Origin: a virus
IMG/VR virus record: IMGVR_UViG_3300030202_003189
Span: 1 to 22,728 of that record
DNA: 22,728 nucleotides
Direction: 5' to 3' (one strand)
The notes beneath the pieces are model-generated. The model made no database searches. It was not told where the DNA came from and worked only from the letters and a program-made list of their open reading frames with translations. Below, piece by piece: positions 12,915 through 20,538 of the stretch; the stretch's first letter is position 1, and every line of letters starts with the position of its first letter. A program made the translations under genes and the position numbers.

Positions 12915-12922
12915 TATTTATA
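12915..12922 (+). promoter_or_regulatory. Late-promoter-like TATTTATA
   Basis: GCATATTTATAATAAAAAC, with the ATG at 12938, 16 nt after the motif. The same spacing occurs at 21305, and 17 nt at 17065. It presumably drives the 12938-14445 unit, which ends at the terminator at 14521. Confidence 0.65.
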
Positions 12923-12937
12923 ATAAAAACAGTTATT

Positions 12938-13168
12938 ATGAATGAAAAAGAAAAAGCAATGAGATATAACACTCTAATGAGTGAGTATATACGTTTAGAG
13001 AACATGATGAAACAAGTTCCTCAGTTATCACTAGACGAACAAATGAAAAACATAGATGCAACCCATAAGGTATTATATACACCAGAAAATGAAGCTCTAG
13101 TTAATCAGTATAAATCAAGAATGTATGCGATACAACATGAGGCGCAAACAAAACAACTAATCAGATGA
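12938..13168 (+). CDS. Small helical late protein
   Basis: A 76-residue, almost fully helical protein (MRYNTLMSEYIRLENMMKQ, then a second helix ENEALVNQYKSRMYAIQHEA). It has no Cys and no clear tag of the type found in neighbouring late proteins. It heads a three-gene late unit behind a TATTTATA promoter and overlaps the next gene by 4 nt (ATGA). Scaffold-, chaperone- or coiled-coil-type roles would fit, but nothing decides. Confidence 0.72.
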   Translation: MNEKEKAMRYNTLMSEYIRLENMMKQVPQLSLDEQMKNIDATHKVLYTPENEALVNQYKSRMYAIQHEAQTKQLIR

Positions 13169-14115
13169 AAACAAGACGTGTAAAGATTTCCCAATCCCAA
13201 CTAGCAAGACTAGTAGAAAATAAAGTAAATGAAAATACTGGTGGTGTAGGAAATCTATCCACTGACGACTCTCCTAATATAGGTATGGGTTCGTCTAAGT
13301 TAGTAACAAAGACTCATATGAACAAACCAGCAGGTAGGTTAAACATTATGGGTGGTACAAATCCACAACAGTTTAAGGAAGGAGGAAGAAAAGAACCTCA
13401 AGGTATGTCTTATAAAAAAGAAATGATGGGAGAAAATAAGTCTAGTGAAAGATTAGATGGTAACAATATAGTAGTAATATGGCCAAGTAGACAATCACAA
13501 CAAGAGATGTCAGGTAAGTTAGACCAAATGGGACTAGAGTTACCAGATGAATGGGAAGTAGGAATGGCTTGTCATTTATGTTGTTGTCCTCTTCATATGT
13601 CAATACAACCTTGTGACTATGGTAAACCTAATAGAAGAAGAGGAGACGGTATGTATGAAAACTCTCACACTATTCCACATAGTGACCAACAAGATTTCTT
13701 TAACGAAGAAGAGGAAGATGAGTATGTAGATACTAGAACACACTTACCTGATGATGGTGGACTCGGTGGTGGAGGAGGTGGAACTCCTTCAGTAGGAGGA
13801 ATACCAGGTTTACCAGTAGGACCTAAAGGTAAAGTAAGAAATAATCCATATAAACCAGGAAAATTAAAAGAAGAGATTACAGCAGGTGGACCTTGTATTT
13901 GTAGAAAGTGGGTGATGGGTTCTGATGGTATAAACAAATGTGTCAGTTATAGTCCTCCTGGATGTGCTGATGCCCCATTTAAGAAAGCCAATGATGATGA
14001 AGATACTGTAAATAAAAAGAAGATTAATCCTAGAGTAATAAGAAGACAAGATAGGGATAAAGCTAGAAGAAGACCTTACTCTTCTAAAGCAAGAGACATG
14101 AGAGGAAGTAGATAA
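13165..14115 (+). CDS. Late protein with N-terminal tag and low-complexity Gly/Pro region
   Basis: A 316-residue protein. The N-terminus MKTRRVKISQSQLARLVENK is a variant of the ESDLTNLIxRVVKE tag, with LVE and VNE sites. Residues 30-110 are polar. A Cys cluster ACHLCCCPLHMSIQPC (134-149) is a possible metal or disulfide knot. An acidic stretch (NEEEEDEYVD) precedes a Gly-rich linker and a short collagen-like piece (GGIPGLPVGPKGK). A second small Cys motif follows (GGPCICRKW, with CVSYSPPGC further on), and the tail is Arg-rich. The build, with tag, linkers and basic tail, suits a virion-internal or decoration protein. No enzyme motif is seen. It is coupled to the gene before by an ATGA overlap. 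Confidence 0.75.
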   Translation: MKTRRVKISQSQLARLVENKVNENTGGVGNLSTDDSPNIGMGSSKLVTKTHMNKPAGRLNIMGGTNPQQFKEGGRKEPQGMSYKKEMMGENKSSERLDGNNIVVIWPSRQSQQEMSGKLDQMGLELPDEWEVGMACHLCCCPLHMSIQPCDYGKPNRRRGDGMYENSHTIPHSDQQDFFNEEEEDEYVDTRTHLPDDGGLGGGGGGTPSVGGIPGLPVGPKGKVRNNPYKPGKLKEEITAGGPCICRKWVMGSDGINKCVSYSPPGCADAPFKKANDDEDTVNKKKINPRVIRRQDRDKARRRPYSSKARDMRGSR

Positions 14116-14127
14116 AAGAATACAACA

Positions 14128-14445
14128 ATGAAAAACTTAATAAGAATAATCAAAGAAGAACTCTCATTACTCCAAGAGAAAGAGAAGTGTTGTAGAAGAT
14201 ATGAATGGATGGGTGGTGAATGGAAATGTACTAAATATAGAAAATGTGCAGATGGTGAAAAACCTGTAGGACAATCACCTCAAGGTATACAAGAAGATAA
14301 AGAAAAAGAATGTTGTGTATGTTATGAAAAGAAACCTGTACTAGGTCATGTTCAAACAGGACCACACGATGGTGATGGATGGAAATGGAAGTGTTGTGGA
14401 TATAAACCATGTAGTGAACTAACTCAAGGTTTCACTCTAGGATAA
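14128..14445 (+). CDS. Small Cys-rich late protein with N-terminal tag
   Basis: A 105-residue protein. The first 17 residues (MKNLIRIIKEELSLLQE) form an amphipathic helix ending in (I/L)-x-E-like sites, similar to tags on its late neighbours. The rest has two related Cys units: EKCCRRYEWMGGEWKCTKY with KC, and KECCVCYEK followed by GWKWKCCGYKPC. Both have a CC pair and a W-K-C segment, so the protein looks internally duplicated. Disulfide or zinc binding is possible. It is the last gene of its unit, followed by a terminator at 14521. Function unknown, probably virion-associated. Confidence 0.75.
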   Translation: MKNLIRIIKEELSLLQEKEKCCRRYEWMGGEWKCTKYRKCADGEKPVGQSPQGIQEDKEKECCVCYEKKPVLGHVQTGPHDGDGWKWKCCGYKPCSELTQGFTLG

Positions 14446-14520
14446 ATGTAATGGGATTCCATTGAAGACTATACACTAAAACACCATTGAGGTTGTATAC
14501 ATTTAGACACGCAAACAAAG

Positions 14521-14542
14521 AGACCCTTAGGGGTCTTTTTTT
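14521..14542 (+). terminator. Intrinsic terminator
   Basis: AGACCC (14521-14526), loop TTAG, GGGTCT (14531-14536) and a run of seven T directly after. This is the classical hairpin plus U-tract and closes the 12938-14445 unit. It is the clearest terminator in the window. Confidence 0.9.
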
Positions 14543-14953
14543 ATGGGATGCGATCCCCTATATGTTCCCCACTAAGAACGTTTAATACATGTCACCATAT
14601 ACAGTGTATGAGGGTTTATTTATCCTTTACACAGTACTTTTCCCCATTTGTACCATAATTATTGTTAAAGGATTCCTTTACTAATCATTACTACGGAGCA
14701 CTCTTTACCACCATTTCCCACTTACTACCACTATCTACCACCACTATAATGTGGGTTTTCATCGGCAAAAACCGTGATTTATAAAATGACACTATGAGTG
14801 GATCTAGTAACTAAACCTCGAAAAACGTCTCTACCTGCGTTGCCCCTTTCGGAAATTGTTTCATTTAAGTCCCGGATTTTTTGACAAGTTGCTAACAAAT
14901 CGTGGATTCTCTCGTGGAAAACCCCGATAATTGTTGATAACTAATGGTTCCAT

Positions 14954-15189
14954 AATTAGGCCACGTTAATTATTAGTTGTACCTTTAGGGTGCAGGTGGG
15001 TGGGTAGTGCGATGCCCGGAACTATTTCACGTGCAAGCATACCTTCCCGCCCGCCCTACAAAGGTACGGAAAATTCCTGACATGGCCAAATTATTTACCT
15101 GACAATATTACCACTGTTAATAACTCCTGGGAAAGTTATGAACATCTAAATTATTTTGTCACATTGTCATAGATTAAATTAGGCCACGT
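14954..15189 (+). repeat. 13-nt direct repeat inside the island
   Basis: AATTAGGCCACGT occurs at 14954-14966 and again at 15177-15189, 223 bp apart. The second copy runs into the palindrome CCACGTGG. The copies flank most of the proposed closed domain at 15050-15225. Confidence 0.65.
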
Positions 15190-15225
15190 GGAAAACATTT
15201 CGTACCTTAGGGGTGGTAGGGCGGG
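15050..15225. repeat. Long-range inverted repeat closing a domain
   Basis: CCCGCCCTAC (15050-15059) is the exact inverse of GTAGGGCGGG (15216-15225). Next to it AAGGTACG (15061-15068) is the exact inverse of CGTACCTT (15201-15208). Together they give 18 paired bases in two blocks with a small asymmetric loop, enclosing 132 nt. Confidence 0.7.
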
Positions 15226-15344
15226 CACCTAGGCCCGTGTCCTAACCACGCTAGCTAGTCACTCCCTGTCCCTTACCCCCCTGACCATCCACTACACACC
15301 CCCCTGGGGGTAGGTGGCATGACCCCCCTATGAATGAATGAGTA

Positions 15345-15379
15345 CCCCCTAGGGGCCCCCTCCCCCCTGGGTACCCCCC
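15345..15379 (-). other. G-quadruplex-type motif on the minus strand
   Basis: Four C-tracts on the plus strand (15345-15349, 15356-15360, 15362-15367, 15374-15379) are separated by 6, 1 and 6 nt. The minus strand therefore meets the usual four-tract, loop-1-to-7 rule with five or six G per tract. Competing plus-strand palindromes (CCCCTAGGGG, GGTACC) overlap it. Confidence 0.6.
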
Positions 15380-15563
15380 GTGTATCCCCTCTTACAGTAG
15401 GTATGACACCACTCATAAGGGGCGGCGACGCTGCAAATAAATTTTCTGAGAAATTTTTGCTTAGAGGTTTGAGTTATTAATTACCCTATAATAAAAGAGG
15501 GGGTGGGTATAATTTGGTTTTAGTGAAAAATTTTTTGCCAGAATTTTTTAATGGATGTTTTGG

Positions 15564-15571
15564 TATTTATA
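15564..15571 (+). promoter_or_regulatory. Late-promoter-like TATTTATA
   Basis: TTGGTATTTATAGTTATG, with the ATG at 15575 only 4 nt after the motif, so the transcript for the small lipoprotein and its two neighbours would be nearly leaderless. Confidence 0.6.
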
Positions 15572-15574
15572 GTT

Positions 15575-15682
15575 ATGATTAAAATAAAACACATATTGTT
15601 TATACTACTATTATTTTCCGCAGGGTGTTCAGTAACTAGTGACGTTCCTAAGGATCATAAGGAGTGTTGTACAAAGAAATGA
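15575..15682 (+). CDS. Small predicted lipoprotein
   Basis: A 35-residue protein with a type II signal peptide: basic MIKIKH, hydrophobic ILFILLLF, and a lipobox-like SAGC with lipidated Cys18. The mature part would be only 18 residues (CSVTSDVPKDHKECCTKK), with a second CC pair near the end. Very short outer-membrane lipoproteins are known as phage o-spanins (Rz1-like), and the two membrane proteins encoded directly after it could be its partners in lysis. No holin or endolysin is seen nearby, so this is a suggestion. It overlaps the next gene by 4 nt. Confidence 0.68.
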   Translation: MIKIKHILFILLLFSAGCSVTSDVPKDHKECCTKK

Positions 15683-15765
15683 TATTAGGGACTATAATAA
15701 TAGTGAGTATCTATTTAACCTTTAGATTTATATTCTGGGTAATAGAAAAATTAGGGGATGATTAA
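15679..15765 (+). CDS. Single-pass micro membrane protein
   Basis: A 28-residue protein consisting of one membrane helix (ILGTIIIVSIYLTFRFIFWV) and a short polar end IEKLGDD. ATG overlaps the lipoprotein stop (ATGA) and its end overlaps the next start by 8 nt, giving a tightly coupled three-gene unit. Possible lysis-unit or membrane accessory peptide; no family recognised. Confidence 0.5.
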   Translation: MILGTIIIVSIYLTFRFIFWVIEKLGDD

Positions 15766-15994: not shown

Positions 15995-15995
15995 G

Positions 15996-16070
15996 TCGGG
16001 GTGGCAGGATTCGAACCTGCGGCCTCCACGTCCCAAACGTGGCGCGATAACCGGGCTACGCTACACCCCG
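15996..16070 (-). tRNA. tRNA-Pro (anticodon UGG)
   Basis: On the minus strand a full cloverleaf can be drawn. The acceptor stem is CGGGGTG/CACCCCG and the D-arm lies in GCGTAGCCCGGTTATCGCGC. The anticodon stem CCACG/CGTGG holds loop TTTGGGA with anticodon TGG. The T-arm is GCAGG-TTCGAAT-CCTGC. The discriminator is A and CCA is not encoded. It would read CCA and wobble CCN proline codons, and the late proteins here are unusually Pro-rich and use CCA often. A minus-strand ORF runs 15 nt into its 5' end. Confidence 0.95.
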
Positions 16071-17502: not shown

Positions 17503-20500
17503 ATGAAAAATAGGAAATTACTTAACGAATACTATTCTAACTGGAACGATGCATTACTCCTTAACGAACAACAAGTTCCGGGTGGTCCTGGTAACTATGG
17601 AAATGTTTGGGAATTTTGTGGTGTTACACCAGGTCCTCAGGGACAACTGGGGGCTACAGCATTTTCAATAGGACTTAATGCAGGTACTGTTCAATATGGT
17701 GATATTGCTGATGTAGATTATGGTGTTAATGGTTATTACCTGGGTATACCAAACTATTGGGTACCGGAAAAATGTAACGATCAATTATGTACTCAAGCTG
17801 ATGTGGGTAACGAATTTGAAGTTATTATCAAACCAAACCACTATCAAGCTGCAACATATCATCTTAGACTTGTATCCGTTGGACAATCTACACCAACTGT
17901 AACTAACGTCTGTAATTATGGTTCGAACCCACCAGCAACAAACATATATAATTGTCCTCATTATTATAATAACTTTGTAGATGGTAATTGCCTTCCTAGT
18001 CCAGAATATGGATGTACGGACCCGACAGCTACCAACTACCTTCCAACGGCAACAATGGATGATGGGTCTTGTGTCTATCCAATTCCTGGATGTACTGACC
18101 CGGCAGCTAATAACTATAACCCAAATGCCACGGTAGATGACGGAAGTTGTACTTTTACCGATATTTGTCATGGTGAGTTAAGTTGGATGATATGTGACCA
18201 AGGTAATTCCGGATACCCTCCGGGAAGTGGTCCTGTTTGGTCGTCAATGGGTCCTGGAACAGTAGCACCGACCCCAGATGGGTGTTTTCAATGTGATGGT
18301 CAAATGTGTACTGCCGCAGATATAGGACAACCTTTCCAACTTCCAAACTACACTGGAGGTGTGCCAACCACAGCTGTTGGTTTATTAGATTCTATTGCTT
18401 TACCTAAGTATATGCAACCTCAAGATATATATAACGCACAGGCTGCTGTTTGTCCTCCACCACAAGGATGTACTAATCCTCTTGCAACCAATTACGACCC
18501 ACTTGCTGTGGTAGACGATGGAAGTTGTATTATTCCTGGTTGTACAGATGTAAATGCAAACAATTATTTACCAAGTGCAACAATTGATGATGGAAGTTGT
18601 ACTTATGATGTTCTTGGATGTACTGACTCTACCGCCACAAATTACGACCCACTTGCTACCGTAGATGATGGAAGTTGTTATTGGGAAGGATGTACGGACC
18701 CAACTGCAACTAATTACGACCCTAACGCTACCGTAGATGATGGAAGTTGTATTATTCCTGGGTGTACAGACCCAGCAGCGACAAATTATAACCCTAATGC
18801 TACCATAGATGATGGAAGTTGTGTATTCCCAACTGTTGGATGTACCGATCCTACCGCAAGTAATTATAATCCTGTAGCAACAGTAGACGATGGTTCTTGT
18901 TACTGGTTAGGTTGTACCGACCCAGCGGCGACTAATTACGACCCTAACGCCACTCAAGATGACGGTTCTTGTATTTATCCAGTTTATGGTTGTACAGACC
19001 CAGCAGCAACAAACTATAACTCCTTAGCAACAGTAGACGATGGTTCATGTGTTTATCCAATTCCTGGATGTACTGATCCGTTGGCTTTTAATTATGACCC
19101 AAACGCAACAGTGGATGATGGTTCATGTTTATATGATGGTTGTACAGATATAAACGCCACTAATTTTAATCCTAATGCTAACGCAGATTGTTCAGGTGTT
19201 CCAGGTGGTCCTGATACGAGTTGTTGTATATATCCAGTTCCAGGTTGTCCAGACCCTACTGTGGTAGGACCAATTGTTAATACAGGTACACAATTTTGTG
19301 TTAATGGTTGTGAAGTATACGACCCTCTTGCTATTGGATGTCCAGATAATAATGGATTGGTAGTACCGGGTGATACTAGTTGTTGTTGTTTTTTAGGTTG
19401 TACCGACGTAAATGCAACCAATTATGACCCACTTGCTTGTATCGACGATAACTCTTGTCAATTACCTCCTCCAATAAACTGTTCATGTTGTGAAGTAGGT
19501 CAACCTGGTACCATAAGTCAACCAGTAGGGATAATGATTAATGGTTGGACACCGGGTGGTTGTGCTTCCTTGAACTCCGCAACTCTTACAAATTGTGATA
19601 CGGCACAAGCGTTTGACCCAACTGATTGTGAACCAGACTGTACTACTTTTGATTTTTCAAGTGCTACCAATCTACCCAATTCTTTAGGGTCTACCTATAC
19701 CATGTTAAACGATGCTTATAATATGGGTTTACAAAATAGTCAAGCTTATGGGATAATGGATGGAAATAGTACTTTTTGTTACGAATTTTGTGTAGCTGGA
19801 GGTGGAACCCATTGGGCTTGTGATTGTTGTGGGGATATACATGATTGTGACCAAGATACGTATTGGCCAAAACCTTATGGATGTTGGACTTGTCGTGACG
19901 ATAATACTTGTGGTCAACCATCCCCAAGTTGGATGTCAAGTAATATGACTCTTAACTACTATAATAATCAAGCTGATTGTTTAGCCGATGCCCCAGTTAA
20001 TTGTCCTCCAAAACCTAGTTGTGATAATACCCCAGAATTTTGTTCACAAACTCCATCTTTAACTCCAGGAGGTTCATGTTGGATTTGTCATCACCAGACT
20101 GTTTGTTTACCAGTTTATGATTATTTAGAATACGGATCAGGACCTCCAGGGTCAACTGGAACTTATTCCTTTATGATGAATTGGTTAATACCACAAGGAA
20201 CAAACCCACAAACTTATAAAACTCCTCAAGGGAGTGATTTATTCTGTAACGCTCAAGATTGTGTTGCAAACTCTCCATGTACTGAATGGGATACTTGGAA
20301 AGCAGAAGATTGTGGACCACCACCAGGTGGGTGTCCTCCTAATGAAATTTGGTATCCTTACCCTAAATGTGAATGTGGTTTACCTAAGGTGATAGACCCA
20401 GTAGATAAAAAAAGACCTAAAGATAAGGAAAAGGAAAAAGAACTAGACGTTGAAAAAACTGATTCGGATCGTGAAAATAAAGAAACAATAAAGGAAGAAT

Positions 20501-20538
20501 TTAGTCGAATGAAAACTATCTGGAATTATAAGTTATAA
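17503..20538 (+). CDS. Giant Cys-rich late protein with GCTDP/DDGSC repeats, probable fibre or adhesin
   Basis: A 1011-residue protein without signal peptide. Residues 1-23 hold two tag sites (KLLNEY, LLLNEQ). A domain at 36-105 (WEFC, then CNDQLCTQADVGNEF) is duplicated at 228-277 (WMIC, then CDGQMCTAADIGQPF), the second copy splitting the repeat array. From 170 to 652 run about 14 units that start GCTDP, carry NYxP and end DDGSC. These are common in secreted proteins of marine Bacteroidetes, and the acidic ends may bind calcium, with the two Cys forming a disulfide. Residues 653-950 are Cys-rich. The charged C-terminus ends with a tag-like helix (TIKEEFSRMKTIWNY). It is probably a virion fibre or surface protein with host-derived repeats. 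Confidence 0.85.
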   Translation: MKNRKLLNEYYSNWNDALLLNEQQVPGGPGNYGNVWEFCGVTPGPQGQLGATAFSIGLNAGTVQYGDIADVDYGVNGYYLGIPNYWVPEKCNDQLCTQADVGNEFEVIIKPNHYQAATYHLRLVSVGQSTPTVTNVCNYGSNPPATNIYNCPHYYNNFVDGNCLPSPEYGCTDPTATNYLPTATMDDGSCVYPIPGCTDPAANNYNPNATVDDGSCTFTDICHGELSWMICDQGNSGYPPGSGPVWSSMGPGTVAPTPDGCFQCDGQMCTAADIGQPFQLPNYTGGVPTTAVGLLDSIALPKYMQPQDIYNAQAAVCPPPQGCTNPLATNYDPLAVVDDGSCIIPGCTDVNANNYLPSATIDDGSCTYDVLGCTDSTATNYDPLATVDDGSCYWEGCTDPTATNYDPNATVDDGSCIIPGCTDPAATNYNPNATIDDGSCVFPTVGCTDPTASNYNPVATVDDGSCYWLGCTDPAATNYDPNATQDDGSCIYPVYGCTDPAATNYNSLATVDDGSCVYPIPGCTDPLAFNYDPNATVDDGSCLYDGCTDINATNFNPNANADCSGVPGGPDTSCCIYPVPGCPDPTVVGPIVNTGTQFCVNGCEVYDPLAIGCPDNNGLVVPGDTSCCCFLGCTDVNATNYDPLACIDDNSCQLPPPINCSCCEVGQPGTISQPVGIMINGWTPGGCASLNSATLTNCDTAQAFDPTDCEPDCTTFDFSSATNLPNSLGSTYTMLNDAYNMGLQNSQAYGIMDGNSTFCYEFCVAGGGTHWACDCCGDIHDCDQDTYWPKPYGCWTCRDDNTCGQPSPSWMSSNMTLNYYNNQADCLADAPVNCPPKPSCDNTPEFCSQTPSLTPGGSCWICHHQTVCLPVYDYLEYGSGPPGSTGTYSFMMNWLIPQGTNPQTYKTPQGSDLFCNAQDCVANSPCTEWDTWKAEDCGPPPGGCPPNEIWYPYPKCECGLPKVIDPVDKKRPKDKEKEKELDVEKTDSDRENKETIKEEFSRMKTIWNYKL
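18010..19458 (+). repeat. Tandem 72-78 bp coding repeats (about 14 units)
   Basis: Units begin at about 18010, 18088, 18466, 18538, 18616, 18688, 18760, 18838, 18910, 18988, 19066, 19138 (degenerate) and 19396, plus a diverged unit in between. Most are 72 or 78 bp. The DNA coding for DDGSC is often identical (GATGATGGAAGTTGT), so unit loss or gain by recombination is likely. The change from GGAAGTTGT in early units to GGTTCTTGT/GGTTCATGT in later ones suggests blocks of different age. Confidence 0.9.

Follow-up and report, generated by a model that had tools for sequence, protein, structure and literature searches.

A gene-free kilobase in a giant T4-like phage genome belongs to a conserved two-part DNA element, probably a replication origin combined with divergent early promoters

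The window analysed here covers positions 1-22,728 of an IMG/VR virus record of 231,285 bp, which we labelled G000. No open reading frame (ORF) of at least 60 amino acids occurs between 14446 and 15757, the widest such gap in the record. Subtracting two tiny ORFs (15575-15682 and 15679-15765) leaves a true gap of 14446-15574, which is the largest ORF-free stretch, and the gene-free kilobase reported in a preliminary description of this DNA is thus confirmed. The kilobase had also been called GC-rich. GC content at 14543-15563 does exceed that of the whole record (0.43 versus 0.343), but it is patchy, at 38% in the left part, 0.63 at 15216-15435 and only 0.26 at 15436-15574. Both of the boundaries that had been named, a terminator on the left and a late promoter on the right, are present. 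The features of the stretch, in window coordinates, are as follows.

14521-14542, plus strand: intrinsic terminator AGACCCTTAGGGGTCTTTTTTT of the upstream operon, the left boundary of the element
14706-14745, minus strand: four iterons GTGGTA/GTGGGA at exact 10-bp steps (14706, 14716, 14726, 14736)
14882-14886, plus strand: TGACA (followed by AG), a weak match and degenerate counterpart of the conserved 5'-module core CTGACATTTTGACAAAATCAAGT
14932-14940, minus strand: DnaA-box-like 9-mer TTATCAACA
14956-14987, plus strand: predicted promoter P1, TTAG-N20-TACCTTTA with a GGCCACGT box; predicted +1 near 14992, initial transcript G-rich
15090-15059, minus strand: predicted promoter P3, exact TTTG-N20-TACCTTTG with a GGCCATGT box; predicted +1 near 15054, leftward
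15100-15169, no strand assigned: P3/P2 spacer with TGACA (15100), TTATTAACA (minus strand, 15115-15123), TTATGAACA (plus strand, 15136-15144) and TGTCACATTGTCA (15157-15169)
15179-15210, plus strand: predicted promoter P2, TTAG-N20-TACCTTAG with a GGCCACGT box; predicted +1 near 15215, rightward
15343-15435, no strand assigned: 3' module with C-tracts (G-runs on the minus strand) and an inverted repeat
15436-15574, no strand assigned: A+T-rich segment after the 3' module (GC 0.26), a candidate unwinding element
15564-15571, plus strand: TATTTATA, putative T4-like late promoter for the operon that follows
15575-15682, plus strand: 35-aa lipoprotein-like ORF, the right boundary of the gene-free stretch

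Similar terminators, for example CCCCTACAGAGGGGATTTTTT, border the element in relatives; cyanophage matches of the terminator in blastn were dismissed as chance hairpin similarity. The TATTTATA octamer also occurs right before the genes at 12938, 17089, 17503 and 20592. Its copies at 12915, 15564, 17065, 17491 and 20556, each ahead of a plus-strand gene, resemble a set of late promoters of the T4 kind. The 35-aa lipoprotein-like peptide ends in KECCTKK and is overlapped by an ORF for a 28-aa membrane peptide (15679-15765, plus strand), both being downstream of the late promoter. The 28-aa ORF is conserved in locus L002, where a similar Cys-rich lipoprotein-like ORF lies near 1986-2129. The tRNA gene noted earlier is a tRNA-Pro at 15995-16070 (minus strand). 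Its association with the kilobase did not hold up, since no tRNA lies closer than 3 kb to the element in any of 59 relatives, and the proximity in the window is therefore incidental.

G000 encodes a T4 gp23-like capsid protein as well as a terminase, UvsX-like recombinase, single-stranded DNA-binding protein (SSB), DnaB-type helicase, primase, SbcCD-like nuclease and RpoD-like sigma factor, and its replication genes are T4-like. The sigma factor (G000:196015-196818; phrog_351, E = 6e-60) may read TAnnTTTG promoters. Judged by the capsid protein, its closest cultured relatives include Flavobacterium immuto phages (~41% identity). Because of these relatives and the Bacteroidota-type promoters, we infer a Bacteroidota host for G000, and the giant T4-like phages that bear the element probably infect Bacteroidota in general. 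At 17503-20538 (plus strand), the window encodes a 1011-aa protein with many GCTDPxATNYNPxATVDDGSC repeats, a repeat of adhesin type that is seen in flavobacterial proteins. Many proteins, including those at 13165, 17089, 21328 and 21962 in the window, start with a short amphipathic LxxxxRIIxE-type prefix that may be a capsid- or structure-targeting tag.

The flavobacterial sigma-A box is TAnnTTTG (PMC9723704). A 39-nt direct repeat in the kilobase (14954-14992 and 15177-15215) and its inverted copy are, as read from the sequence, three Bacteroidota-type promoter units. P1 reads TTAGGCCACGT...TACCTTTA, P2 reads TTAGGCCACGT...TACCTTAG, and P3, which matches the consensus exactly with a 20-nt spacer, reads TTTGGCCATGT...TACCTTTG. 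The 13-nt direct repeat seen earlier is the core of the 39-nt repeat. The long-range inverted pairs are likewise real (15049-15059 with 15216-15226, 11 of 11 positions complementary), and the segments that pair are promoter copies. The promoter unit did not occur in 2000 shuffles of the kilobase. In four related genomes, TTTG-N19-21-TAnnTTTG yielded 42 intergenic matches, 25 of them right ahead of an ATG on the same strand, compared with 2-7 intergenic matches and 0-4 before an ATG for permuted or mis-spaced controls; these phages use this promoter class. P3 and P2 form a divergent pair, and P3 and the layout of the divergent spacer are conserved in L154 (from G019) and L305, while homologues of P1 are found in G001, G009 and G015. 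All three promoters are followed by G/C-rich rather than A+T-rich DNA.

Homologues of the kilobase were detected by blastn/nhmmer in G019 (nhmmer E = 2e-15), G001 (5e-9), G009 (6e-7) and G015 (2e-4); G012 and G013 also contain its modules. Two search motifs were derived from these relatives. The 5' motif, CTGACAT..TGACA....CAAGT, retrieved 34 IMG/VR stretches, mostly from large phage contigs. The 3' motif, CCGTATCCCCYCTTA...GGGG, retrieved 84 stretches, 59 of them distinct and again mostly from phage contigs (up to 322 kb). The conserved feature is a two-part DNA element present in dozens of related phage contigs of up to 322 kb. Its 5' part contains TTATNAACA, operators of the form TGACA-N3-TGWCA, and iterons (GTGGTA/GTGGGA) phased at exactly 10 bp; its 3' part consists of CCCCCTCCCGTATCCCCCC...GGGGGG followed by A+T-rich DNA. 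Conservation at the 3' module exceeds the searched letters, with CCCCCTCCC before it and AGGGGGGAYAATNCC and A/T tracts after it. With up to 3 mismatches allowed, the 3' block was present in 37 of 50 records, in exactly one copy in each of these 37 and never in two, and its reversed control gave no match in the same record set. Wherever both modules are recognisable, they stand in the same order, 0.6-2.2 kb apart.

The surroundings and the interior of the element are far less constant. Flanking genes differ between relatives, and in most relatives protein genes of several kinds lie between the modules; G012 and G013 each carry an ORF in mid-element. Promoter units are missing or rearranged in many relatives that retain both modules. 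One unit is left in G001, G009 and G015, and the order is -,+,- in G019. A family of ~100-aa proteins is encoded directly after the 5' module in L225 (1807-2112, plus strand), L155 (3322-3612, plus strand) and ~16 more loci. The window does not encode a member, and the protein (predicted structure with pLDDT 84) has no known fold relative and no Pfam family.

Other searches were less productive. The flanking proteins at 13165-14115 and 14128-14445 led to no relatives, and a search with the 78-aa ORF gave relatives of which only the contig of L002 has the element. An exact 23-mer of the P2 region had no match in IMG/VR, and blastn against a collection of 50,697 cultured-phage records did not find the element. 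Several candidates were set aside as apparent chance matches: L038, L233/L242 and a single GTDB match (L330, in a Planctomycetota MAG). The match of L281 to the 3' pattern is due to chance.

We examined the sites within the two modules against shuffled and background sequences. The chain of four iterons is exceptional, as none of 5000 dinucleotide shuffles reached even three. Across the 5' modules of 23 relatives, GTGG[TG]A was found 60 times against 6.75 expected, most commonly at a spacing of 10 bp. TGACA-N3-TG[AT]CA occurred 50 times in these modules against 0.22 expected; 23 of the 50 were built into the search pattern and the remainder are independent of it. TGACA pairs with a spacer of 2 or 4 were absent from the 5' modules.

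DnaA-box-like sites are enriched as well. The kilobase contains three TTATNMACA sites against a mean of 0.16 in shuffles, only 3 of 5000 of which reach three. All three are near-consensus TTATNAACA variants, and the window has no exact TTATCCACA. Exact TTATCCACA was found 28 times in 55 3' modules (0.18 expected) and TTATNAACA 29 times in the 5' modules (1.5 expected), and TTATNGACA and TTATNTACA showed no clear enrichment. These module counts come from related sequences, with a background of eight records; because the loci are related, clustering within a single genome is the better test for DnaA boxes. By this measure, DnaA boxes (TTATNCACA) cluster far above background in two relatives, with five exact TTATCCACA copies each in ~1.2 kb. 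In the 269-kb record G076, 5 of the 9 TTATCCACA copies genome-wide are no more than 1.1 kb away from the 5' motif (P = 6e-10), and in the 183-kb record G055 the element contains 5 of the 7 copies (P = 2e-9).

A stand-alone protein of 112-132 aa consisting essentially of DnaA domain IV, the box-binding domain, is encoded in 2 of 25 relatives, both large: L331:1408-1806 (minus strand) in G042 and L332:1399-1737 (minus strand) in G049 (PF08299, E = 1e-21 and 1e-16, respectively). Each gene adjoins one for a conserved 182-aa protein. This protein may be one by which the phage acts on DnaA boxes, either as a decoy or as an initiator. In G000, we recognised no DnaA domain and no initiator gene, including beside the element.

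The preliminary description had proposed, as one of its readings, a large structured RNA in a setting like that of GOLLD and ROOL, possibly of a new class. Such an RNA would fit a gene-free, locally GC-rich kilobase that has a tRNA close by and whose middle section folds better than shuffled sequence. Folding of the whole kilobase exceeded that of shuffles modestly (z = -3.5 on the plus and -2.7 on the minus strand). The excess was confined to 14946-15231, with z = -0.8 for the left part and +0.15 for the right part, so the outer thirds fold like shuffles. The middle section scores about -6 on both strands because the promoter copies sit inverted to one another, and the stem noted earlier has the same cause. 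Rfam covariance models gave no match in the window at the gathering threshold; when the kilobase was searched at E ≤ 10, neither GOLLD, ROOL nor any other family produced a match approaching its cut-off.

Nor did pair counts across the 3' inverted repeat, GTATCCCCTCTTA...TAAGGGG in the window (15386-15394/15416-15422, with TGACA in the loop), reveal a stem supported by compensatory changes. The C6/G6 arms are nearly invariant (44-54 of 54 C-G per pair), a constancy partly due to selection, since most rows had been retrieved with a pattern that included the left arm. A T-A replacement is seen in the window alone, beside a C-A mismatch, and changes on one side only speak against the outer pairs that might form. 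The repeat thus shows conservation of sequence and none of base pairing, as far as the alignment tells. No fold appears to be conserved, because the copy number and order of the promoters vary and the interior holds protein genes in relatives. With protein genes filling that interior in most relatives, a kilobase-long conserved RNA fold for the family is very unlikely. GOLLD and ROOL (Rfam; PMC12286853) resemble the window in being long non-coding phage stretches with a tRNA nearby; unlike them, the element has no covariance-model match, no conserved fold, no link to a tRNA, and protein genes in its interior in relatives. We consider a new giant RNA class to be highly improbable here.

The promoters, phased repeats and clustered DnaA boxes in relatives argue instead for a cis-acting DNA element, which we interpret as probably the main replication origin combined with a divergent early-promoter region. 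A replication site had been mentioned earlier as an alternative, and it gains from the occurrence of the element once per genome with 10-bp iterons, operators, promoters and A+T-rich DNA. The skew analysis proposed at that time lent it no support: neither GC skew nor third-position skew switches at the element in G000, G012 or G013. A strand-composition switch is not a strict defining feature of origins, and skew is a weak test here because it tracks the orientation of genes and because recombination drives most replication in T4-like phages. The degenerate 5' core of the window, its lack of an exact TTATCCACA and the absence of a recognisable DnaA domain or initiator gene from G000 count against an origin, and the A/T tracts that follow the 3' module in relatives are to be read against A+T-rich DNA that is common throughout the genome.

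If the element is an origin, early in infection RNA polymerase with a host or phage Bacteroidota-type sigma factor would start at P3 (leftward) and at P2 and P1 (rightward). We infer that an initiator would bind at the iterons with their 10-bp phasing as well as at the TGACA sites, and that host DnaA, or the phage DnaA-domain-IV protein where one is encoded, would bind the DnaA or DnaA-like boxes. The A+T-rich segment could then melt locally, the G-rich early transcript could leave an R-loop, or both, which would let the T4-like helicase, primase and SSB of the phage load. The predicted G-rich initial transcripts are compatible with an R-loop primer, and nothing more. Later in infection, the TATTTATA late promoter would take over. 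More tentatively, and with rather less than even confidence, the element may represent an undescribed origin type shared across a large clade of uncultured T4-like jumbo phages, in which DnaA-type and transcript-primed initiation are joined in one site. Under this proposal, which we hold equally tentatively, the once-per-genome element would itself be the divergent early promoter, and a phage iteron-binding factor would act there together with DnaA of the host or with a DnaA-domain-IV protein of the phage.

Such sites could also function purely in transcription control, with divergent promoters and operators switching early genes while replication starts elsewhere. The three good Bacteroidota promoters and the TGACA and TTATNAACA sites that recur in the P3/P2 spacer agree with such a role, and DnaA can double as a transcription factor. 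Yet many relatives keep the 5' and 3' modules without promoter units or with rearranged ones, the flanking genes vary, and exact DnaA-box clusters together with phased iterons, once per genome, exceed what promoters need; regulation by itself is therefore unlikely to account for the element. A packaging start (pac/cos) or a centromere-like partition site, with repeats or palindromes bound by a terminase small subunit or a ParB-like protein, is less probable again. It would explain the single copy, the phased repeats and the palindromes, and several homologues do lie at contig ends. The element is internal in G000, G012, G013 and G015, however, and contig ends are not common to them; no part in packaging or partition is known for DnaA boxes or promoters; and the T4-like terminase suggests headful packaging. 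None of our findings points toward the packaging site that had also been considered.

To our knowledge, how jumbo T4-like phages start replication is largely unknown, and in T4 itself several dissimilar origins were discovered only by experiment. The element shares with the T4 origins a T4-like phage context, the presence of promoters, an A+T-rich segment that is a candidate for unwinding (like the unwinding DNA at oriF and oriG), even direct repeats (as at oriE) and small ORFs nearby. T4 oriF and oriG have promoters, downstream unwinding elements and an R-loop primer, and oriE has evenly spaced iterons (PMC3016281). In contrast to the several T4 origins, which lack a common motif, the element is one multi-part non-coding unit per genome across dozens of contigs. 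As far as that review (PMC3016281) describes, the T4 origins have no DnaA boxes, whereas relatives of the element do. The iterons also differ, measuring 12 nt at oriE and 10 bp here. Bacterial oriC and iteron plasmid origins contain DnaA boxes, iterons and an A+T-rich unwinding element. The element resembles them in its clustered TTATCCACA (in relatives), phased direct repeats and A+T-rich segment; it differs in that G000 has no recognised adjoining initiator gene and that the boxes of the window are TTATNAACA variants. Neither embedded promoters of the sigma-A type nor a 3' module of C-runs and G-runs is known to us from oriC.

We therefore favour a phage replication origin of a variant for which we found no earlier description; our searches of open-access literature on phage origins and DnaA boxes turned up none of the element, which is itself weak evidence. 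A signature that occurs once per genome would allow origins to be placed computationally in dozens of large phage contigs. The element also raises the directly testable question of whether a T4-like phage uses host DnaA, and what appeared to be a giant RNA becomes an ordinary, testable DNA element. Other big non-coding gaps occur in related phages (G013:203528-204632 and G014:82747-83470) and look tmRNA-like by eye; tmRNA was found by ARAGORN in L003 and L005.
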